From Malachius bipustulatus (taxonomy: Eukaryota; Arthropoda; Insecta; Coleoptera; Melyridae), in contig OU342632.1 of assembly GCA_910589415.1 (NCBI GenBank), forward strand, positions 39,693,637 to 39,757,636: a stretch of 64,000 nucleotides of DNA, in the 5' to 3' direction. A model generated the notes under the pieces. That model ran no database searches. It saw only the letters and a list, made by a program, of their open reading frames with translations, and was not told where the DNA came from. Of the stretch, positions 32,945-62,279 are shown in pieces (position 1 is the first letter of the stretch; every line of letters starts with the position of its first letter). The position numbers and the translations under genes are program-made.

Positions 32945-33821
32945 CAGGGTGTCCCAGCTTATTCGAAGCGGTCTCTGTAGGCCAAACAATGAATTTTTTC
33001 CAAGAAAATTTGGCAAATTCAAGTACAGAATCACAATGGCTAAAATTTAAAATTATTTTGGGGTATACAGAGTGTCCCATATGACAGTGGCATATCAAAG
33101 TTATGTTTTTTTAAATGGAATGCTCCTAGGTTATTGCATTTTTAGATTGTCTGAAAAGAGAAAATAAGATTGGCTTCTACAGTTGGTGTTTAAATTCAGA
33201 AGTTTTAGAGTTATAAACAAGTGAAAATCGTCATTTTTCAAGTTCAAGGCCCTGTACAACGAAAACGGCTGAAGATAGAGAAAAACGGCTTACATGTCCC
33301 TATTTTAACTTTTCATGTACTATCCTATGATGTAGATGAAATGTTTATACAAGGTGATAAAAAATTTGAAAAATTCCAAGATTTCTCCACGCGTTGCAAA
33401 ATCAAAAAATCCAAAAAAGTACAAATGTTTCTATACCCTAGGATAGTACATAAAAAATTAAAATAGGGACATGTAAGCCGTTTTTCTCTATCTTGAACCG
33501 TTTTCGTTGTACAGGGCTTTGAACTTGAAAAATGACGATTTTCACTTGTTTATAACTCAAAAACTTCTGAATTTATACACCAACTGTAAAAGCCAAACTT
33601 ATTTTCTCTTCTCAGACAATCTAAAAATGCAATAACATAGGAGCATTCCATTTAAAAAAACATAACTTCGATATGCCACTGTCATATGGGACACTCTGTA
33701 TACTCCAAAATAATTTTAAATTATGGCCATTGTGATTCTGTACTTGAATTTCCAAAAGTTTTTTTGAAAAAATCCATCGTTTGGCCTACAGAGGCCGCTT
33801 CGAATAAGCTGGGACACCCTG
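32945..33821. mobile_element. 877-bp near-perfect palindromic MITE (GTGTCCCAGCT ends)
   Basis: CAGGGTGTCCCAGCTTATTC at the left and GAATAAGCTGGGACACCCTG at the right, flanked by TA (32943-32944, 33822-33823). The two arms match almost base for base over about 430 bp each. The inner core (from AAGTTCAAGGCCCTGTACAA) is shared with elements at 49353 and 61725 that have other ends. Related interrupted copy at 47067-47290 plus 57187-57740. Non-coding; short frames here are chance. Confidence 0.92.
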
Positions 33822-37704: not shown

Positions 37705-38790
37705 TTCTCTACTCCTGTAGCTTCATCTTTCAAGATTAGTGAACGAAATTTTTTACTCTTGTGAAACTTTGGGATGGCATTTGATTTTAGGTTAAAAAAT
37801 TCCTAAAGTCGCGTTTAGGGTGCCCCTTCAAATTTAAAAAAAAAAAAAAACCGTTCACGAGACAGTTACTGGTCGCAGTTTTCAATCTAGGGGTCCGAAA
37901 TTTTTGTGGCATTAAGATATTCGCAAGGAGTGGTCTGGTACTGTATTTGAGTAGAATCGGTCGAGCCGTTCCAAAATGGCGACTTTTTAAATTTTATGAA
38001 AAATTGACATTTTTTTAACCTCTGCGTAAGCAAAATAGAAAAAAACCTTTAAACCAAATTAACAAGATTGGAAGAAAATATTTTAAATTTGAGGTAATGT
38101 AATAAAATTTTTCTCGGAATATGGTAGGTTTATAAATAATGCAATAAAATTTGCATTATTTATATTATAAAGCCAGTGGCGTGGGTAGGAAAAGGGTAAA
38201 AATGGCGAAATTTCTATAACCGTTTATGATCATATTTTTGAAGAAATTGAACTGAAATTTTTACAGTAGACAACTTTACTAATATAACCTTTAACTTTAA
38301 AAAATTTCAAGAGGCAAATAAGAGAAATGACGGTAATATTCGATTTTTTTACATGATGTTTATTTCTCTAACATTTCAAGTTTTTCTGTTTTCAAAACTC
38401 CCCTGTAACTTTTTTTCGAATTTATTAAAGGTAGTGTAAAGAAGTGCATTTTTTAAATAAAGTTAGCCAGTGGCGGGCTTAGAAAAAGGGACAAAATTGT
38501 TGAATTTTTGCAATTTTTTTTTATTTAAAAATTTATTTTATGGCACGTTTGCAAACGAAATGAAATGAAATTTTCACAGTAAACCACTACGCTAATACCT
38601 ATGACCCTACTATTGAAAATTTCAGCAAGGCAATCTAAAAAGCGGTGAAAATATTCAAAATTGAATCTCAACATAAATATACACTTTTTATGCGATTGAT
38701 GCGCAAGAAGGTTTTTGAAAAATGAAGCGCGACCAATTTTTTGTTTTAACAATAAAAAAGCGACCAAAAGAGACAATTAATGCAAGTGTT
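37705..38790. repeat. Dispersed repeat, single-unit copy
   Basis: Order: CCTGTAGCTTCATCTTTCAA, GTCGCAGTTTTCAATCTAGG, CAAAATGGCGACTTTTTAAA, GCCAGTGGCGTGGGTAGGAA, TTTACATGATGTTTATTTCT, then a distinct tail with GCCAGTGGCGGGC and GCGATTGATGCGCAAGAAGG. The same order, with the first module doubled, occurs at 41205-42825. Non-coding; possibly a non-autonomous transposon, but no inverted ends or target duplications could be set. Confidence 0.7.
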
Positions 38791-39376
38791 AGATATAAAA
38801 AAATCGAAAGTGGTACTGGTAACGTTTATGCACCTAGAAAAAGAACCCGGTGACCCAGTCATTTGAGTGAGGCTGTTGTACCGGTTTTAATATCATTATG
38901 ATCGCAATCTAAATAATATGTAGGTTTGTATTGGGTAGTAAATTAGGCGTGCATGTAAAGTGACGTAAAGATCTTATCGAATCTAATTTTACCTTCGCCA
39001 TTAATCGATAGCCTATCAGTTATTCTGATAGGAAAAATTTTACTGCGTGTAGCCCTAATCACGCCCTAATTACGCCCTAATTCTTGATTAATTAACGTTT
39101 TATAGTTTTATGATATGAAGAAGTTAAATAAAATTAAATTTATAAAAAAAAGTATTTTAATTTAGTTTATATTATCTACTGTGATATTCTTCCTGTCGGT
39201 TCACGATGATCCCGTATTAGTGTATTTTTTAATAAAAAAATACACTATTGAGGACGACATCACTTTTCGAAAATCACCCAAACTCATCAAATGTCCACCG
39301 ATCATGACCCCCAGATCACGAAAAAGTGGTTTTCCAAAATTCACCTGCCCACGATATATATATATATATTTATATA
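38791..39376. other. Left flank of the retrozyme array
   Basis: Unannotated AT-rich sequence with a small hairpin CCTATCAG-TTATT-CTGATAGG near 39011-39031 and a (TA)n tract at about 39354-39376 that abuts the array. Confidence 0.5.
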
Positions 39377-39467
39377 TCATGCAAATATAATTTTCGGGCA
39401 TTTTAAGCTCATTAATAAAGTGCTTTCAATGGCAGACAGCACACGCAACCATCTAGAGCCCCTCGAA

Positions 39468-39514
39468 GCTGCAGACGGACCGTTTCGGTCTTTTTATGAC
39501 CTCATCAGTACAGC
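39468..39514 (-). ncRNA. Hammerhead ribozyme 1 (type I)
   Basis: Minus strand: stem I strand GCUGUA, core CUGAUGA, stem II GGUC/GACC with loop AUAAAAA, core GAAA, short stem III CGG/CCG with a minimal loop, GUC cleavage triplet, stem I partner UGCAGC (six pairs, one G-U). Self-cleavage is predicted 3' of GUC, between 39474 and 39473 on the minus strand. All invariant core bases are present. Confidence 0.92.
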
Positions 39515-39908
39515 ATATCGAGATGGAATCCAGAGGCTACGATGCTGTCCGCCATCAAAAGCTAGGCCTTTGTACCCACTCAGTTCCACGGAACCCAGTG
39601 ACTTACAACGCCTTTCGCCATCTAACAATGGAGGCAAGAACTACCAGCAGTGTGTGCCAGCTTGCGACCATCGGAGATGGCGGCCCGGTGCAGTTTTATA
39701 TGCTTTTGGGCTTCACCTCTCCTCGGCCAGTGCTGACCACTGCCGGAAGATGCCATTCCATTCGCCCATAAGTAATTAATACAAATATGAAAGTTTTATT
39801 AAAGCCGTGATTATAAATCATGCAAATATAATTTTCGGGCATTTTAAGCTCATTAATAAAGTGCTTTCAATGGCAGACAGCACACGCAACCATCTAGAGC
39901 CCCTCGAA

Positions 39909-39955
39909 GCTGCAGACGGACCGTTTCGGTCTTTTTATGACCTCATCAGTACAGC
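39909..39955 (-). ncRNA. Hammerhead ribozyme 2 (type I)
   Basis: Exactly 441 bp from ribozyme 1 and identical to it in all stems and core positions. Two cleavages at copies 1 and 2 would release a 441-nt monomer. Confidence 0.92.
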
Positions 39956-40349
39956 ATATCGAGATGGAATCCAGAGGCTACGATGCTGTCCGCCATCAAA
40001 AGCTAGGCCTTTGTACCCACTCAGTTCCACGGAACCCAGTGACTTACAACGCCTTTCGCCATCTAACAATGGAGGCAAGAACTACCAGCAGTGTGTGCCA
40101 GCTTGCGACCATCGGAGATGGCGGCCCGGTGCAGTTTTATATGCTTTTGGGCTTCACCTCTCCTCGGCCAGTGCTGACCACTGCCGGAAGATGCCATTCC
40201 ATTCGCCCGTAAGTAATTAATACAAATATGAAAGTTTTATTAGAGCCGTGATTATAAATCATGCAAATATAATTTTCGGGCATTTTAAGCTCATTAATAA
40301 AGTGCTTTCAATGGCAGACAGCACACGCAACCATCTAGAGCCCCTCGAA

Positions 40350-40396
40350 GCTGCAGACGGACCGTTTCGGTCTTTTTATGACCTCATCAGTACAGC
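40350..40396 (-). ncRNA. Hammerhead ribozyme 3 (type I)
   Basis: Third minus-strand copy, again 441 bp away and identical in sequence. It is the copy closest to the head-to-head junction; only 28 bp separate it from the break at 40424. Confidence 0.92.
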
Positions 40397-40522
40397 ATAT
40401 CGAGATGGAATCCAGAGGCTACGAGGCGTTGTAAGTCACTGGGTTCCGTGGAACTGAGTGGGTACAAAGGCCTAGCTTTTGATGGCGGACAGCATCGTAG
40501 CCTCTGGATTCCATCTCGATAT

Positions 40523-40569
40523 GCTGTACTGATGAGGTCATAAAAAGACCGAAACGGTCCGTCTGCAGC
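40523..40569 (+). ncRNA. Hammerhead ribozyme 4 (type I)
   Basis: First plus-strand copy. GCUGUA at 40523-40528, CUGAUGA at 40529-40535, stem II to about 40550, GAAA, stem III, GUC ending at 40563, then UGCAGC 40564-40569. Predicted cleavage after 40563. Confidence 0.92.
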
Positions 40570-40963
40570 TTCGAGGGGCTCTAGATGGTTGCGTGTGCTG
40601 TCTGCCATTGAAAGCACTTTATTAATGAGCTTAAAATGCCCGAAAATTATATTTGCATGATTTATAATCACGGCTCTAATAAAACTTTCATATTTGTATT
40701 AATTACTTATGGGCGAATGGAATGGCATCTTCCGGCAGTGGTCAGCACTGGCCGAGGAGAGGTGAAGCCCAAAAGCATATAAAACTGCACCGGGCCGCCA
40801 TCTCCGATGGTCGCAAGCTGGCACACACTGCTGGTAGTTCTTGCCTCCATTGTTAGATGGCGAAAGGCGTTGTAAGTCACTGGGTTCCGTGGAACTGAGT
40901 GGGTACAAAGGCCTAGCTTTTGATGGCGGACAGCATCGTAGCCTCTGGATTCCATCTCGATAT

Positions 40964-41010
40964 GCTGTACTGATGAGGTCATAAAAAGACCGAAACGGTC
41001 CGTCTGCAGC
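40964..41010 (+). ncRNA. Hammerhead ribozyme 5 (type I)
   Basis: Second plus-strand copy, 441 bp from ribozyme 4 and identical to it. Predicted cleavage after 41004, so copies 4 and 5 bracket one complete monomer (40564-41004). Confidence 0.92.
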
Positions 41011-41137
41011 TTCGAGGGGCTCTAGATGGTTGCGTGTGCTGTCTGCCATTGAAAGCACTTTATTAATGAGCTTAAAATGCCCGAAAATTATATTTGCATG
41101 ATTTATAATCACGGCTCTAATAAAACTTTCATATTTA

Positions 41138-41185
41138 TATTTATATATATATATATTTATATATATATTTATATATATATATATT
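41138..41185. repeat. (TA)n / TATTTA microsatellite
   Basis: Interrupted AT dinucleotide tract directly at the right end of the retrozyme array. A similar tract at about 39354-39376 abuts the left end, so the element probably inserted into, or expanded, an AT repeat. Confidence 0.85.
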
Positions 41186-41204
41186 TCTCCAAAATCGCGA
41201 AATT

Positions 41205-42825
41205 TCGATTTTCAAAACGCTCCTGTAGCTTTATCTTTCAAGATTAGTGAATGAAATTTTGGATCCTTGTAAAGCTTTGGAACGACGTTAGATTTTCGTT
41301 GAAAAAAATTCCTAAAGTCGCGTAACTTCTACAGGGTGTCCTTTCAAAATTCCCCATATCCCGTTTTTGTCATCTCATTTCAGGTCGCAGTTTTCAATCT
41401 AGGGGACTGAAATTTTTGTGGGAGTAAGATATATATAAGAACTGGTCTGGTATTGTACTTGAGCAAAATCGGCCGAGCCGTTTCAAAATGGCGGCCATTT
41501 GAATTTTTGGAAAAATTGCTTTTTTTTGAACCCCTGTATGAGTAAGATGGAAAAATAACTTTGAAACTAAATCAACATGATTGGAGGAAAATTAATTGAA
41601 ATTTGATTTAATGTTATAAAATTTGCATTACTTTTATTAATAAGCCAGTGGCGTGGGTAGGAAAAGGGTAAAAATCGCTAAATTTCTCTAACAATTTATG
41701 AGCACATTTTTGAAGGAATTAAATTGAAATTTTCACAGTAGGAACTATACTAATAGCCTCTAGCCCTTAAAAATTTCAAGAAGTAAATAACAAAAATGGC
41801 GGAGTTATTTGAATTTTTTTTACATGATGTTTATTTCTCTAAAATTTTAAAAACGCTCCTGTAGCTTCACCTTTCAAGATTAATGAACGAAATTTTTTAC
41901 TCTTGTGAAACTTAGAGATGACGTTTGATTTTCGTAAAAATAATTTTCCTAAAGTTTTGTTACTTTTACAGGGTGTCCCTCCAAATTTCCAAAAAAAAAC
42001 CGGTCATGAGGCACGGTTTCTGGTCGCAGTTTTCAATTTAGGGGGCTGAAATTTTTTTTGTAGTAATATAACTGCAAGTAGTCGGTCTTGAGTAAAATCG
42101 GAATAGCCGTTCCAAAATGGCTGCCTTTTAAATTTTAGGAAAAATTGATAGATTTTGAACCTGTTCTAAATAAGCAAGTTAGAAACAAAAACTTTTAAGC
42201 AAAATTAGCATTATTGGAAGAATAGTTATTGAAATTTGAGTTATTGCAATAAAATTTGCATTTTTTTATTATTAAGCCAGTGGCATGGGTAGGAAAAGGG
42301 TAAAAAAGGCTAAATTTCTATAGTCGTTTATTCTATTTTTCTATTTTTTGTACAAATCGAACTGAAATTATTCCAATAGATAACTATACTAATAACCCTT
42401 AATTCTGAAAATTTTCAAGAAGCAAATAATAAAAATGGCGGAGATATTCGAATATTTTTAAATTATGTTTATTCCTCTAAAATTTCAAATTTTCAGTTTT
42501 CAAAGCTCCCTTTTCACTTTTTCAGTTCTATTGAAGGTAGTGTAAAAAATAGTATTTTTGAGGTAAAGTCAGCCAGTGGCGGGCAAAGGAAAAGGGGCAA
42601 AATTGTTCAGTTTTACCATTTATTTTGGTTTTGTTAAATTTAAAAATCCATTCTAAGGCACGTTTTCAAACGAAGTGAAATGCAATTTTCACAGTTAACC
42701 ACTACACTAATATGACCTGACTAGGGAAATTTTCAGAAAGCCAATTTAAAAAGCGGTGAAAATATTTATAAATTGGATCGCTTAAAAATACACTATTTAT
42801 GCGATTGATGCGCAAGAAGGTTTTT
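41205..42825. repeat. Dispersed repeat, double-unit copy
   Basis: The first module of the repeat at 37705 occurs twice in tandem (about 41205-41840 and 41855-42480), each with TTTCAAGATTA, a CAAAATGGC motif, GCCAGTGGC..GGGTAGG and a TTATGTTTATT stretch. The distinct tail (42490-42825) with GCCAGTGGCGGGC and GATTGATGCGCAAGAAGG follows. Same orientation as 37705-38790, so the retrozyme array is flanked by direct repeats. Confidence 0.75.
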
Positions 42826-43739
42826 GGTTTTAAGTACAAGTCTCGACTACACCCTCTGGAAACTTGTCCAGTTTCAGCCATCTCAGTCAGGAGTCAGGAC
42901 ACGTCGTGTCAGATACGAAGGAAACTAAACGACCACGTACTCTTACCTTGTTCCTGATCTTTTAAGGTTTAAAGGAAATTAATTGTCGTCACAATTCGTT
43001 AATCATTTTCGTGTTCGTTAATTAATTGAAATTTTTACTTTTTTCGCTATTAAGACACGTGTCATTGGTAATAAACAAGATATCAGAAAAAATCAAATTA
43101 TCTTTCTAATTAGCTTTGAAAATCAAGAAAAATGCAGAACTTACAACATAATTTTTGGACTCAAATTTGGAGATTGTAAATTAAATCGATCATAAACGTC
43201 AACAATGAATTATTGTTTGCATGAGACGAGTGGCTTTTGCAAATAAGAAATAATTCTCTTAAAATTTATTCAGTAGTCATCCATCATAGTTATAACGAGG
43301 AGGTAAAGAAATTTTGAAGTCAAATTTTTGGTATAACTTCACTAACGTACTGCTTTAAGCACCCTACCGGTTTCGGTCTTCTGTACATTTTCAGAGGTAA
43401 AAAAACGGCTTAAAGCAAGCGGTGTTTTACATCCAGAAGGGTCTGTGTAAAATTGATCGATCTCATAATAAAATGCACAACAGTGGAGTCCCGGGTTGAA
43501 CTTTATTACCCTACAAGTTTATGTTAATTGCCTATTGTTGACCGCACGCGTTTACCTGCTATAAATCATCATAATGTCTAGAAACTAGCTAGTTTGTGGT
43601 GCTAATAATTGAAATTTTGAATTGATTTTTGAAGATTCGCGTTTTAAACAGTGAAGTCAATTATTTACCAATAAAAACCGATCTAAAGGTAAATCTATAA
43701 GTTAATGAGTCGCGAAGCCAAACCGTCCGTCTCAATAAT
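42826..43739. other. Unannotated sequence with a hammerhead-like motif
   Basis: No gene recognised. The motif at 43361-43398 is listed separately. Confidence 0.45.
43361..43398 (-). ncRNA. Hammerhead-like remnant (weak)
   Basis: Minus strand: ACCU, CUGAAAA (core CUGANGA with one change), a 13-base stretch with no convincing stem II, GAAA, CCGG (self-complementary), UA, GGGU, which pairs with ACCU including one G-U. Same layout as 32555-32594, with an altered core base and no stem II, so catalysis is unlikely. GACCGAAACCGGTAG is a frequent insect repeat motif. Confidence 0.28.
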
Positions 43740-44165
43740 TTTTTTTTTTTATCTATAATTTTTTTTATTATTGAAAATGCACATGCACTGCAGGGAAATC
43801 CCTATGACGCTCTGGGAGCGGTGCATGAGCGGAGATATCGATTCACGTTAGCCTTGAATCTATGTAAGTTGTATACTTCGGGAAACACGCCCTTTGGAAT
43901 GCTATTCCAAAGTGATGCGGTTCTGTACATAAAAGAAGTCTGAAATAGGGTGGTACGAGGTGTAACGAGCTGAACCTGATACGGATGAGCGTCTGCGGCT
44001 CGACGTGTATTTCTGCCCGGTCTTGTTCTTGGTGGGATCAAGCGGGCCACGTCTTTTGAACACCTTCCATTAAAATATCTGTAAAACAGACTCAGGTCAG
44101 CTACTCTTCTTCGATGTTCGAGAGTGTCTAAATTTTTTGTCAAAATTACCCTGCACTATATGTAA
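43740..44165 (-). pseudogene. 3' end of a LINE ORF2 (5'-truncated)
   Basis: The minus-strand frame 44143-43802 encodes 113 residues: LEHRRRVADLSLFYRYFNGR, then LIPPRTRPGRNTRRA, then SFMYRTASLWNSIPKGVFPE and FKANVNRYL, ending at a stop. This is the conserved C-terminus of Jockey/CR1-type LINE polymerases (the RR..DL..Y...NG and WN.LP motifs). The upstream RT is missing. The 3' UTR with AATAATAAAA and a T-rich stretch runs to about 43740. The frame is intact, so this is a fairly young 5'-truncated insertion. Confidence 0.8.
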
Positions 44166-46389: not shown

Positions 46390-47010
46390 GTGTTGCTGCA
46401 TGGACTTTTTGAGAAGAAAGTCGAGAAGAAAGCTTTTGAAACAGTTTTTACTGCTTAGGACGGTTATGTTTTGCAGGTCATCTGCTAACAAGTCCTCTTT
46501 CTACAGTGACTGCTCGCATTGCTTGAATGATTGTGGATTCTCATCAGTGACCCCGAAAGGGGTTATTCTGCTCACTCACGCATCCAGCCAGCAAAAAAAG
46601 GCTTGGTTGCACGTGATGAATTCATCTTCAAAATCTGCAAATTCGCCGAGGATTGTCTCCTGGACATTCAGGTGTACCAGGTTACGAGATGACAGACCAT
46701 ATGCGAAGCTCGAAACCAGAGAAAGCTTTCGGTGATCGGACCTGTACGTGCGTGTGACTAAATATCTTTCTAAGAGAGGCCATTAAAGAATGGGCCCAAA
46801 AAATGGTTTAGAGAAGCATTGAGTGACAAGCTAAAGTGCAGACGCGCCAGACATGCGCAAATAGGCTGACCGATATGATCAAAACACGTTGAAGAGGTCT
46901 TAGCTTGGGCTACATGTTGGAGTGATTACTGGTCACAACTATACTAACAGCCTGAAGGCACTAACACTTAGGGGGTGAAGAGGAACCCGCAGGTTGTTAC
47001 TAATATGAAA
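46390..47010 (+). pseudogene. LINE RNase H and tail relic
   Basis: FYSDCSHCLN, then SVTPKGVILL, and in a shifted frame SPGHSGVPGYEMTDHM correspond to the RNase H domain of Jockey/R1/I-type LINEs (YSDSQAxL and the WxPGHSGxxGNExAD motif, where the final D is catalytic). Further on, REAIKEWAQK and LKALTLRG resemble the region before the C-terminal Cys motif. Several frame changes and stops. Not from the same insertion as 43740-44165, which has the opposite strand. Confidence 0.6.
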
Positions 47011-47066
47011 CAGACTATAAAAGGGGACTACAACCACTACATACATATAGGTGTACGCGAGGTATA

Positions 47067-47290
47067 CAGGGTGTCTCAGCTCATTCGAGTCGGTCGCTGT
47101 GAGCCAAACGATGGATTTTTTGCGAAAAAAAAATGCAAATTCAAGTCCAGGATGACAGTGGTCATAATTTAAAATTATTTTGGACTATACAGAGTGTATG
47201 ACAGTGGCATATCAAAGTTATGTTTTTTTTATGGAATACTCTTATGTTATTGCATTTTTAAATTGTCTGCGAAAGGAAAAAATAAGATTG
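47067..47290. mobile_element. Left half of a MITE split by a 9.9-kb insertion
   Basis: Starts CAGGGTGTCTCAGCTCATTC next to TA and follows the left arm of the MITE at 32945 up to AATAAGATTG at 47290. The remainder of the same element resumes at 57187. Confidence 0.85.
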
Positions 47291-49352: not shown

Positions 49353-50808
49353 TAGTGGCGTGTGTGAGTCGGACGAACATGTAAATATTTTGAGCCGGAA
49401 CAAGATTACTTCCCCCACCGTTTTCGAGGATGCTGAACACGATGCCGTTGTCAGAATTTCTCTTTGGGGTTGCGCAACCCCTCAAAACGGCCAAAAACCA
49501 CCCCCTAGAGAGATAAACCGCGCTTCAATCCATTTCCCTGCAAAAAAACCTTCCCCCCGTTTTCGAGGATGCTGAGCACAATGGAGGTGCTGGACATCGC
49601 GTGCGACCTCGACCAACCCCTCCACCGGCCAATACTCACCCCCGAAATGGGTGATTTTTTTTTATGTATATGTAGGCCAAACGATGGACTTTTTCGAAAA
49701 ACTTTTTGAAAATTCAAGTACAGAATCACAATGACCATAATTTAAAATTATTTTGGAGTATAAAGAGTGTCCCATATGACAGTGACATATCAAAGTTATG
49801 TTTTTTTAAATGGAAAGCTCCTATGTTATTGCATTTTTAGATTGTCTGAGAAGAGGAAATAAGATTGGCTTTTACAGTTGGTGTTTAAATTCAGAAGTTT
49901 TTGAGTTATAAACAAGTGAAAATCGTCATTTTTTAAGTTCAATGCCCTGTACAACGAAAACGGCTAAAGATAGAGAAAAACGGCTTACATGTCCTTATTT
50001 TAACTTTTCATGTACTATCCTATGATGTAGATGAAATGTTTATACAGGGTGATAAAAAATTTGAAAAAATCTGAGATTTCTCCACGCGTCGCCAAATAAA
50101 AAAATCAAAGAAAGTACAAACTATACCATAGGATAGTACATAAAAAGTTAAAATAGGGACATGTAAGCCGTTTTCCTCTATCTTGAACCGATTTCGTTGT
50201 ACAGAACCTTGAACTTGAAAAATGACGATTTTCACTTGTTTATAACTCAAAAACTTCTAAATTTAAACACCAACTGTAAAAGCCAATCTTATTTTTTCTT
50301 CTCAGACAATCTAAAAATGGAATAACAAAGGAGCATTCCATTTAAAAAAACATAACTTTGATATGTCACTGTCATATGGGACACTCTTTATACTCCAAAA
50401 TAATTTTAAATTATGGCAATTGTGATTCTGTACTTGAATTTTCAAAAAGTTTTTCGAAAAAGTCCATCGTTTGCCCTACATATACATAAAAAAATCACCC
50501 ATTTCGGGGGTGAGTATTGGCCGGTGGAGGGGTTGGTCGGGGTCGCACGCGATGTCCAGCACCTCCATTGTGCTCAGCATCCTCGAAAACGGGGGGAAGG
50601 TTTTTTTTTGCAGGGAAATGGATTGAAGCGCGGTTTATCTCTCTAGGGGGTGGTTTTTGGCCGTTTTGAGGGGTTGCGCAACCCCAAAGAGAAATTCTGA
50701 CAACGTCATCGTGTTCAGCATCCTCGAAAACGGAGGGGGGAAGTAATCTTGTTCCGGCTCAAAATATTTACAATTTTCGGGTTTTTTTCCGACTCACACA
50801 CGCTACTA
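49353..50808. mobile_element. 1.46-kb palindromic element with captured MITE core
   Basis: Ends TAGTGGCGTGTGTGAGTCGG and the inverse CCGACTCACACACGCTACTA. Outer arms carry GC-rich blocks (CCGTTTTCGAGGATGCTGA occurs twice per arm; GGGGTTGCGCAACCCC is itself palindromic). From about 49676 to 50478 the interior is the MITE of 32945-33821 lacking its terminal 40 bp or so. Target duplication unclear. The 70-80-codon frames are chance. Confidence 0.85.
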
Positions 50809-51591
50809 TAGTAGGATTAACTTTAAAAAGTCAGATGTGACGTCTTACTAACCGTCCGAATTAATATTTTTAATTTCACCAGAAAATGTCAAACAGTTAA
50901 TTGTCAAGTTGTGAACGAGCGTAATTATTGAAGGAATCATTCAAAAAATGAATTGAACCGCTTACGTCAGTTTGAGAGCCACTGACAACTACATAAAATT
51001 TATTCACGTAATGACATTCTATCCTCTGTGTTGTGCATTTAATTCTCATTCAAAACCAATGTTGACGTATACTTATTTATGCGGGATGGAGTGTTTAGAC
51101 AAACTGGACGGTTACTATAAAAACCACGTATATGAAACAAAATAAATCGAACTATCAAATGGAGGTGTATTCTTAATCGATACGTATGACTTTTTAGACT
51201 TTATTGGACTATATAATGTTTATTAGGTAAGTTAAATGAAAAAACAAAGGATGGAAATTTTCATTTTATTTCATTTTTATTTCCTGTTATTTTGCTTTTG
51301 TTTCCTAGGTAACCTTACGTACTCGATTTTTGATTGTTTAGCAAAATCAGTTTGGCAAAGTACCTATGTAGTTGAATTTACTATAGGTCTGGCTTCATTT
51401 TTTTTTAGCTTCCAAAGGCTGCATCTCGTTTATTTGTGAGTTTTTTAATTAAGAAAAGTTATTTGAATAAGTTATTTGCTTTGATGAATTATTATAATAC
51501 ACAGTCGAAAAAAGTATCGCCTTAAAAGACATCCCACCCCGTATGAATATTGGCCTATTAATTTATGTCAATTCAGGTATTATAGTATGTA

Positions 51592-54061
51592 CAGGGTGGG
51601 CCAATTTGGATGTTTCTATAGGAGATCTCGGTAACTATAAGAGCTATGGAAAAATGGATGGCGCATTCTCGATCGCTTTTTTTGAGAGGAACTCAATGGT
51701 GAAAACCGGAACTCGCTATCTTCTTTTGTTTTCGAGCTATAATGAAAAATACGATTTTTCACGATATCGATAAATGTCGATATCTTTCTTGGTTTTCAAG
51801 TTAGAGAAAAGATATTTGCACATTCTTCAGACACTCTTTTGAGTAGAATGGAATGGCCTCAACGGATTTTGAATATCTTTTTTCATTTTTCGGTTATAAC
51901 ATAAAGTTGTATTTTTTTAAATGGAAGTCATAGTGGGCCATGAACTAATTAAATAGAGTTTTTTTTTTCTCTTTGCAACGATATACAACATGTGTGTTAA
52001 AAATTTATGAAAAGTTACATTTTTCAAAATAAATTGAATTTATCTAGCTATCTGAGATTTTTTATTTTTATTTTGACTAGTCACCTAAGTGGGCGTGAAT
52101 GTCATTTAGAAAATTATGCGACAACGACTGTCAAAGCCAGTTTACGCAGTTTTTGAGTTAGAAAGTGCTCGTTTCACTTGCAAAATGGCAAATTTGGTTT
52201 ATGAAAACTACGAAAAGTATGATATGTTAGAATGCTTTATTCAAAGTAACAGCAATTTTGATATTGCATCCGAAACATACTTCAATCGTTATCCAGAGAG
52301 GAGACAGCCCCACAAATCTATTTTTGAGAGGTTGAAGGCAAATATTATCAATCACGGGTCATTCAAGAAGCCTAGGCCGAAAAACTATCTTATTGGTGAT
52401 GCCGAAGAAACTGCCATTAATGTAATTGGAGCCGTAGTTGCCAATCCTTCTATTTCAAGTCGCCAAATTGAAGCAGAGTCAGGGATCTCAAGACGGCGAG
52501 CTCTACGTGTTCTGAAGAAGAACAAATTCAAGCCTTACACAATAAGGAAACAGCACCACCTACAGCCAACCGATCCTCAGCGACGATTGGACTTTTGCAA
52601 TTGGTATCGTGAAAAACTTCAAGCAGATCCATTGTTCTTCACGAAAATGATTTGGACTGATGAAGCCTACATCACCAGCGCCGGAATTTTTAATAGGCAT
52701 AACGAACACTTCTGGTCTGACGTCAACCCCCACCGCACCGTCGATGTTCAATATCAGGGACGCTTTGGTTTTAGTGTCTGGTGTGCCCTACTTGGCAATC
52801 GTATATTGGTCTATCACATCTACCAAGAAAATTTAAATGGGGACCGGTACTATGAAATTCTTAACGAACATATAATCGAAGAATTCTTGGACAATTTACC
52901 CTTGGCTGAGAGAAGAGATTTATTCTTCCAACAGGACGGTGCGCCACCACACAAAACGAGAAGGGTTTCGGACTTGTTAAATACAAATTTTGGGGATAAT
53001 TGGATTGGTAGTCAAGGACCAGTGAGGTGGCCGCCACGGTCACCTGACCTTACACCTATGGATTTCTTCTTTTGGGGATTTGTGAAAAACACTTTATATA
53101 AGAGAACCAGCAACGATATCGACGAACTAAGACAAAATTTTATAGAATGTGTGAACTCCATTTCAAATGTCCATATTTATAACGCGGTTCAAGCTGTTAC
53201 GACGAGGTGTGATCTCTGTGTTAATAATAATGGATATCAGTTCAAACACTTACTTTGATCAGGATTAGGTTTAGATTTGAATAGTTCATTGTTTTTTGCT
53301 GTAATTTTTATTGTTATATTTATTTGTTGACATTAATTTGTTGATTTGTCTCTCTTTCTCAATATCAGATGATATAAATAACAGAATTGTTACTATTTTG
53401 CATAAAGCAATCTAACATACCATATAAAAAGTTTCATTGGTCAACAGCCAAATTTTACTTTTTTCAAAGCGGAACAGTCACTTTCTAACTCAAAAATGTA
53501 AGAGAACTGACTTTGACAGGCGTCTGCATATACTATTCTAAATGACATTCACGCCTACTGCCCACTAGGTGACTAGTCAAAATAAAAATAAAAAAATCTC
53601 AGGTAGCTAGATAAATTCAATTTATTTTGAAAAATGTAACTTTTCATAAATTTTTAACACACATGTTATATATCGTTGCAAAGAGAAAAAAAAACTCTAT
53701 TTAATTAGTTCATGGCCCACTATGACTTCCATTTAAAAAAATACAACTTTATGTTATAACCGAAAAATGAAAAAAGATATTCAAAATCCGTTGAGGCCAT
53801 TCCATTCTACTCAAAAGAGTGTCTGAAGAATGTGCAAATATCTTTTCTCTAACTTGAAAACCAAGAAAGATATCGACATTTATCGATATAGTGAAAAATC
53901 GTATTTTTCATTATAGCTCGAAAACAAAAGAAGATAGCGAGTTCCGGTTTTCACCATTGAGTTCCTCTCAAAAAAAGCGATCGAGAATGCGCCATCCATT
54001 TTTCCATAGCTCTTATAGTTACCGAGATCTCCTATAGAAACATCCAAATTGGCCCACCCTG
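51592..54061. mobile_element. Apparently complete DD41D Tc1/mariner-like transposon, 2470 bp
   Basis: Ends CAGGGTGGGCCAATTTGGAT and ATCCAAATTGGCCCACCCTG, flanked by TA (51590-51591, 54062-54063). The inverted repeats are unusually long, about 550-580 bp each, and near-identical for much of their length. They enclose one intact transposase gene (52185-53258). Intact coding sequence plus well-matched arms suggest recent activity. It sits inside the 9.9-kb insertion. Confidence 0.93.
52185..53258 (+). CDS. DD41D transposase (Tc1/mariner group, DUF4817-type)
   Basis: Cut-and-paste DDE transposase, 357 residues from the ATG at 52185. An upstream in-frame ATG at 52116 would add 23 residues but lies in the inverted repeat, whose other copy is not open there, so MANLVYENYEKYDML is preferred. 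Order: N-terminal helix-turn-helix region (NLVYENYEKYDML, YFNRYPERRQPH), second DNA-binding segment (SSRQIEAESGISRRRALRVL), then the catalytic core. Counting from 52116: D182 in MIWTDEAYI, D274 in FQQDGAPPH, D316 in SPDLTPMD; 91 and 41 residues lie between them, hence DD41D. No frameshift or stop. The spacing matches the DD41D group (the rosa elements are the named example); family assignment needs a phylogeny. Confidence 0.93.
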   Translation: MANLVYENYEKYDMLECFIQSNSNFDIASETYFNRYPERRQPHKSIFERLKANIINHGSFKKPRPKNYLIGDAEETAINVIGAVVANPSISSRQIEAESGISRRRALRVLKKNKFKPYTIRKQHHLQPTDPQRRLDFCNWYREKLQADPLFFTKMIWTDEAYITSAGIFNRHNEHFWSDVNPHRTVDVQYQGRFGFSVWCALLGNRILVYHIYQENLNGDRYYEILNEHIIEEFLDNLPLAERRDLFFQQDGAPPHKTRRVSDLLNTNFGDNWIGSQGPVRWPPRSPDLTPMDFFFWGFVKNTLYKRTSNDIDELRQNFIECVNSISNVHIYNAVQAVTTRCDLCVNNNGYQFKHLL

Positions 54062-54063
54062 TA

Positions 54064-57186: not shown

Positions 57187-57740
57187 TTGGTTTTTACAGT
57201 TGGTGTTTAAATTCAGAAGTTTGTGAGTTATAAACAAGTGAAAATCGTTATTTTCAAAGTTCAATGCCCTTCATAAGGAAAACGGTTAAAGATAGAGAAA
57301 AAACGGCTTACATGTCCCTGTTCTAACTTTTTATTTTCTATTCCTTGGTAAAGAAACATTTTGACTTTTTTTTATTTATTTATTTAGCACAGAAATATCA
57401 GATTTTTCAGATTATTGATCACCCTTATATAAACATCTTGACCGCTTTTGTTATGGGCCATGAACTTTGAAAATTGCGATTTTCACTTGTTTATAACTCA
57501 CAAACTTCTCAATTTTTACACCAACAGTAAAAACCTTCTATTTTCTATTCTCAGACAATCTAAAAATGCAATGAATCCATTAAAAAACATCTTTGATATG
57601 CCATTCTCATATGGGACACTCTGTATGGTTCAAAATAATTTTTTAATATGGCCATTGTGATCCTGTGATTGAATTTGCAATTTTTTTTTAAGCCATCGTT
57701 TGGCCAAGAGAGACCGACTCGAATGAGCTGGGACAGCCTG
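57187..57740. mobile_element. Right half of the MITE split by the 9.9-kb insertion
   Basis: Resumes with TTGGTTTTTACAGTTGGTG, continues through the shared core and the right arm, and ends GAATGAGCTGGGACAGCCTG at 57740. The flank is TT instead of TA, probably mutated. It matches the left half at 47067 end to end as inverse arm. Confidence 0.85.
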
Positions 57741-57753
57741 TTTACTTATAGTA

Positions 57754-61724: not shown

Positions 61725-62279
61725 CAGGGTGTTCTACAAGCTCTATGACAAACTTTGACAGATGGTAGGTTGCTTGATTTTAAACATATTTTTTTTAATA
61801 AACATGGGTCCGATTCGTTTTTGTTTAGAAGTTATACAAGCATTTAAAAAATCGTAATTTTTCAAGTTCAAGGCCCTGTAAAAGGAAAACGGTTCAAGAT
61901 AGAGAAAAACGGCTTACATGTCCCCATTTTAACTTTTTAAGGACTATCCTATGGTATAGAAACATTTGTACTTTCTTTGATTTTTTTAAATGTGGAGAAA
62001 TCTCAGATTTTTTCAAATGTTTTATCACCCTGTATAAACATTTCATCTACATCATTGTATAGTACATGAAAAGTTAAAATTGGGACATGTAAGCCGTTTT
62101 TCTCTATCTTGAACCGTTTTCCTTTTACAGGGCCTTGAACTTGAAAAATTACGATTTTTTAAATGCTTGTAACTTCTAAACAAAAACGAATCGGACCCAT
62201 GTTTATTAAAAAAAATATGTTTAAAATCAAGCAACCTACCATCTGTCAAAGTTTGTCATAGAGCTTGTAGAACACCCTG
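61725..62279. mobile_element. 555-bp palindromic MITE (GTGTTCTACAAG ends)
   Basis: CAGGGTGTTCTACAAGCTCT and the inverse AGAGCTTGTAGAACACCCTG, with TA on both sides (61723-61724, 62280-62281). Near-perfect arms. The innermost core (CAAGTTCAAGGCCCTGTAAA, ACGGCTTACATGTCCC) is that of the MITE at 32945, but the outer 130 bp are unrelated. Non-coding. Confidence 0.9.

Follow-up and report, generated by a model that had tools for sequence, protein, structure and literature searches.

The closest described relatives of the locus reported here are the retrozymes of animals, together with the elements proposed to move them. Metazoan retrozymes are known as tandem repeats of 150-450 bp that contain a type I hammerhead ribozyme and correspond to a highly self-paired circle (Cervera and de la Pena, 2020; PMC7229834). 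Their RNAs are reported at 170-400 nt, their GC content is given as under 50% in the text and under 45% in a figure legend, their target-site duplications, when present, are longer than 4 bp, and insects are named as hosts of retrozyme-type repeats (PMC7229834). Penelope-like elements are a strong candidate partner according to the authors of the retrozyme work (PMC7229834), and are the favoured, unproven candidate for moving animal retrozymes (PMC7229834, PMC7761336). Here we describe an array of five hammerhead motifs at positions 39376-41136 of a 64-kb stretch of contig OU342632.1 from the beetle Malachius bipustulatus (the window hereafter is this whole stretch of 64,000 nucleotides). The sequence partly supports the assignment of the array as a copy of a metazoan non-LTR (long terminal repeat) retrozyme with a unit of 441 nt. 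Its layout suggests, with a confidence that we put at about even, a young retrozyme that owes its insertion to priming on both strands by a Penelope-like reverse transcriptase.

Penelope-like elements leave insertions of an unusual form. In a rotifer, the insertions have direct terminal repeats and one inverted repeat, most often head to head; an inverted repeat may bear a 31-bp tail at its 3' end, and the target is duplicated over 8-10 bp or not at all (PMC3846280). The purified protein of a lizard Penelope-like element cuts both strands of AT-rich DNA and extends them, and copying begins at two internal sites of the RNA, between which the tail lies (PMC11167929). In the lizard element the ribozyme cuts 26 nt past the start codon, and a start site of copying lies 111-118 nt into the open reading frame (ORF) (PMC11167929); by our arithmetic, the start site is therefore ~85-92 nt after the cut.

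The array in the beetle consists of two arms of opposite orientation. With unit position 1 taken as the first base past the ribozyme cleavage site, the minus-strand arm (39376-40424; 1049 nt, composed of 69 + 441 + 441 + 98 nt) runs from unit position 373 to 98, and the plus-strand arm (40425-41136; 712 nt, composed of 139 + 441 + 132 nt) from 303 to 132. The arms are joined 5' to 5' between 40424 and 40425, where at most one base is shared, with three hammerheads on the minus strand and two on the plus strand. A preliminary description, made from the sequence alone, had presented the array as a single tandem and overlooked the head-to-head inversion, the feature that tells most about the locus; its limits (39377-41137) were one base off those that we set by exact match. 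The 441-bp spacing of the hammerheads that it called exact is valid inside each arm and fails across the junction, where the two nearest motifs lie on opposite strands, their cleavage sites 207 bp apart. Tandem Repeats Finder called the minus-strand arm alone (39370-40424, period 441, 2.4 copies, 99% matches). Three complete cleavage-to-cleavage units are present, each of 441 nt, and they differ at positions 113 and 147 only, both singletons, in line with the earlier view of a nearly mutation-free copy. Since the units are nearly identical, the sequence supports a young age for the array. Permissive BLAST found no further copy in the window, only two chance-level matches of 22-24 bp (E 0.57).

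The outer ends of the arms are also distinctive. They fall at unit positions 98 and 132, within the AT-rich part of the unit; because AT bases are common to the unit and the flank, the second end may be as early as 126, and the two ends are therefore offset by 28-34 nt. The last 34 nt of the plus-strand arm (41103-41136, unit positions 99-132) are missing from the end of the minus-strand arm and form a possible tail. Both ends sit in AT-only tracts, at 39354-39377 on the left and 41131-41186 on the right. The right tract is the longest among the 21 AT-only runs of at least 22 bases in the window, which make up 1% of it in total. Just past the arm ends, flank and unit agree over short stretches (TATAA and TATT). 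Diverged tandem repeats of ~650 bp (74-76% identity) lie on either side of the array, at 37712-38717 and 41208-42826.

The hammerhead motif spans 61 nt and is identical in all five copies, with the conserved core whole. On the minus strand the copies are at 39462-39522, 39903-39963 and 40344-40404, with cleavage expected after 39474, 39915 and 40356, respectively; on the plus strand they are at 40515-40575 and 40956-41016, with cleavage expected after 40563 and 41004. Stem II has four pairs and a 7-nt loop, and stem III has three pairs (counting the A-U pair beside the core) and a 3-nt loop, much as first described. Stem I has the six pairs already noted and continues past an internal loop (UAU/U) for five further pairs. 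Scanning both strands of the window with a structural descriptor (5-nt stem I, CUGANGA, stem II, GAAA, UH) returned exactly these five motifs, against one match in 200 dinucleotide shuffles of the window, which bears out the claim of five complete hammerheads. When a six-pair stem I was required, the 200 shuffles gave no match. A looser core pattern added one match, at 46547 on the minus strand, which is without the remaining hammerhead structure.

By exact search, the ribozyme had no match in viral contigs or in prokaryote genome contigs, and phage records gave none either when searched for distant similarity to 441 bases of the plus-strand arm; such results are expected because the element is of animal type. 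In one viral contig, IMGVR_UViG_3300025645_000791 (780-920), a core resembling the hammerhead, whose stem II has identical letters, is found slightly upstream of an ATG. It was the sole match of a looser ribozyme pattern in the viral contigs, and we set it aside as unrelated.

Comparison with the published features of metazoan non-LTR retrozymes gives a largely favourable picture. A whole type I hammerhead is present in every unit, stem III is weak as in those elements, and the tandem unit of 441 nt inside each arm is within the repeat range of 150-450 bp. The GC content of the unit is 47.4% (the window as a whole has 34.6%), which is under the 50% of the published text and over the 45% of one figure legend. 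The predicted circle is highly self-paired: its fold of -172.8 kcal/mol compares with a shuffle mean of -126.6 (z -8.5), and none of 60 shuffles was as low. The retrozyme identity proposed earlier thus agrees with most of the published sequence features, while the unit is longer than the reported RNAs of 170-400 nt. The array also differs in its head-to-head inversion; neither "inverted" nor "head-to-head" appears anywhere in the main text of PMC7229834. In the open-licence literature, which makes for weak evidence of absence, we found no earlier report of head-to-head retrozyme insertions, and the passages of PMC11722881 on inverted repeats deal with back-splicing and viroids. Retrozymes as such are already known, and the array would be a further instance of them.

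Other hammerhead repeats are less similar. Plant LTR retrozymes share non-autonomous, ribozyme-flanked units and circles with the array (PMC4918200, PMC7229834, PMC7761336), but they carry type III hammerheads in their LTRs, a primer-binding site and a polypurine tract, whereas the array has type I hammerheads and no LTR layout. The hammerhead satellite DNA of newts and the pDo500 satellite of cave crickets (PMC7229834, PMC2808323), to which the array can be likened by description only, form long satellites, whereas the array has two short arms. For hammerhead ribozymes in satellite DNA of Coleoptera, the open-licence papers gave only the cave cricket case.

The ribozymes of the newt satellite work best as dimers (PMC7229834), a behaviour that the predicted folds of the array also favour. 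For a single 68-nt motif, the minimum-energy fold is a competing hairpin that pairs the 3' side of stem II with stem III (-22.2 kcal/mol, vs -18.3 for the hammerhead). When two motifs are folded together, a double hammerhead is favoured over two monomers (-50.5 vs -44.4 kcal/mol), with a predicted stem III of 4 + 4 pairs flanking a U-U mismatch. The same structure is the unconstrained minimum-energy fold of the actual 561-nt stretch that holds both plus-arm ribozymes (-232.2 kcal/mol, vs -219.9 for two single hammerheads), and in the 441-nt circle the competing hairpin returns (-172.8 vs -168.9 kcal/mol with the hammerhead). The ensemble is less decisive: in the single motif stem II forms in 59% and the competing hairpin in about 41%, and in the 561-nt stretch each pair of the dimeric stem III forms in 40-48%. 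A strict on/off switch of the ribozyme, which the minimum-energy folds favour, is not upheld by these percentages. Because the ensemble is split between hammerhead and competing hairpin, we claim only a tendency of the ribozyme to act as a dimer, which the minimum-energy folds support and with which the ensemble agrees moderately; the earlier statement that cleavage is best as a dimer can be kept in this weaker form. A scan for bacterial promoters and terminators is not meaningful here, and its five terminator-like matches are the antisense of the competing hairpin.

The array shares with Penelope-like elements a type I hammerhead, tandem repeats together with head-to-head inverted repeats, an end offset of ~30 nt and an AT-rich target. 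The likeness is one of layout and not of sequence: the head-to-head repeats and the 28-34 nt offset, which matches the ~31-bp tail, do not imply membership. AT-only tracts at both array ends agree with the AT-rich insertion sites of Penelope-like elements, and the first array end, 98 nt past the cleavage site, compares with the ~85-92 nt of the lizard element. Penelope-like elements code for a reverse transcriptase/endonuclease, whereas the 441-nt unit has no ORF for a telomerase-like reverse transcriptase and is not itself a Penelope-like element. Penelope-like hammerheads are, moreover, described as minimal (PMC7761336), whereas that of the array has a stem III and an internal loop in stem I.

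From the anatomy observed in the array, we infer each step of the following mechanism. In a multimeric transcript, neighbouring ribozymes would pair as a double hammerhead, as the folding predicts, and cut themselves into 441-nt monomers, which a host RNA ligase would close into circles, as proposed for the family. A Penelope-type reverse transcriptase would then cut both strands at an AT-rich site. Two neighbouring sites within the RNA, ~98 and 126-132 nt past the cleavage site, would serve as starting points, and copying from each side would cover over one unit length, either around the circle or on a multimer that had not been cleaved. The two complementary DNAs would finally meet 5' end to 5' end and be joined with at most one shared base.

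Several points weigh against this account or against the ribozyme assignment beneath it. The layout is known from one locus only, and the argument from it, drawn as it is from that single locus, has moderate strength. An offset of 28-40 nt would arise by chance in 6% of cases with ends anywhere on the circle, and in 17% with both ends in the AT-rich stretch at 61-160. The AT-rich target could anneal to the AT-rich stretch of the unit without a Penelope enzyme, and copying of the lizard element starts in an AC-rich region, whereas the counterpart in the array is AT-rich. Candidate target duplications of 10-13 bp are AT-only, and duplications of at least 10 bp also appear in 22% of simulated AT flanks, which makes the candidates uninformative. 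No Penelope-like element was found among 10 scanned window proteins, a small sample that says little. In the covariance search that had been suggested as a check, Rfam gave no match at the gathering threshold in the window; a permissive search of 39300-41200 (1.9 kb) recovered five matches to Hammerhead_HH9 at 25.3 bits (E 0.0017 each), below the gathering score of 52 for that model.

The literature adds further difficulties. Efficient cleavage as a monomer is reported for most type I hammerheads of invertebrates (PMC7761336). In vitro, the lizard element needs no ribozyme for insertion and uses unprocessed RNA as its main substrate (PMC11167929). The circle step may be unnecessary for this reason. 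No cross-mobilisation was seen between two types of Penelope, and head-to-head repeats were ascribed to self-priming on an antisense template (PMC3846280). Self-priming is a less likely origin of the inversion in the array, whose junction shares at most one base.

The alternative that survives best is that a retrozyme or hammerhead-satellite tandem was inverted later, by breakage and repair or by recombination at AT-rich DNA, so that the layout would say nothing of insertion. AT tracts are prone to breakage. The junction with at most one shared base fits end joining, and the flanks also have diverged tandem repeats of ~650 bp (75% identity). On the other hand, the outer ends are separated by 28-34 nt of the unit and both fall in AT-only tracts, neither of which a random inversion within a tandem would require; the near identity of the units in both arms also leaves little time for a later event. 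We regard later inversion as unlikely, although it is the most serious competitor of insertion by a Penelope-like enzyme. Less probable again is twin priming at an AT-rich site by a non-LTR reverse transcriptase of the long interspersed nuclear element (LINE) type, with the ends set by annealing between AT target and RNA. The AT-richest part of the unit contains both ends, the TATAA and TATT matches follow just beyond them, and a fragment at 43802-44155, which has no Pfam match, presumably resembles a non-LTR reverse transcriptase. For retrozymes, LINEs have been named as the other candidate (PMC7229834). However, neither end has a poly(A) or simple 3' tail, and a tail-like offset with head-to-head repeats is described as regular for Penelope (PMC3846280).

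Assemblies are known to go wrong at inverted arms that are almost identical, and a plain tandem array could have been misjoined as an inverted repeat. We consider such an artefact improbable, more so than LINE-type priming: the arms are unequal in length and end at different points, and beyond them only the AT tracts are alike, whereas a read-through palindrome would mirror the flanks as well. That the unit is a coding, viroid-like agent and not a non-coding retrozyme is barely credible, since the antisense frame on which this idea depends (39780-40220, on the strand opposite the hammerhead), although open in 146 of 147 codons, is equalled in openness by 156 of the 5000 shuffled units (dinucleotide shuffling), has no Pfam family up to E 0.1 and has no protein relative up to E 10 among 10 candidates. 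We therefore rejected the antisense frame as a gene. The sense frames of the unit have at most 57 codons. The unit thus lacks protein coding, as had been stated at the outset and as in metazoan non-LTR retrozymes.

Other mobile elements are present in the window, which has the look of animal DNA. At 51590-54063, a transposase frame (52110-53258) is flanked by inverted repeats of ~690 bp that are 91% identical, with the outer 41 bases the same at both ends; this is an element of mariner/Tc type whose terminal inverted repeats are very long. The frame matches HTH_Tnp_Tc3_2, DDE_3 and DUF4817 of Pfam, all below the curated cut-offs. Among the best 120 of its 598 relatives, the eight with names are from beetles (one from Onthophagus taurus and seven from Aromia moschata), which would suit an insect host, perhaps a beetle, as a lead only, because transposons cross species. 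Two copies of another repeat, at 32976-33790 and 49671-50480, are 92% identical and match each other in both orientations, as in foldback or palindromic elements; related pieces are found at 47060-47290, 57187-57751 and 61848-62180.

The observations on the array can be joined in a broader model, which we offer tentatively and with less confidence than its insertion by a Penelope-like enzyme. Retrozymes may hold a Penelope-type module with two start sites ~100-130 nt past the ribozyme cut, and may stand to Penelope-like elements as short interspersed nuclear elements stand to LINEs. Target-primed copying on both strands would give rise to the head-to-head arms and the tail of ~30 nt. The ribozyme may also switch between states: the double hammerhead of the multimer would be active, and in the single circle the competing hairpin would disfavour the ribozyme. 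The inverted layout hints at the class of mobile element that copied the array into place, and a retrozyme insertion with a Penelope-like layout means that the idea of a Penelope-like partner can be tested from the mapped ends of other copies.
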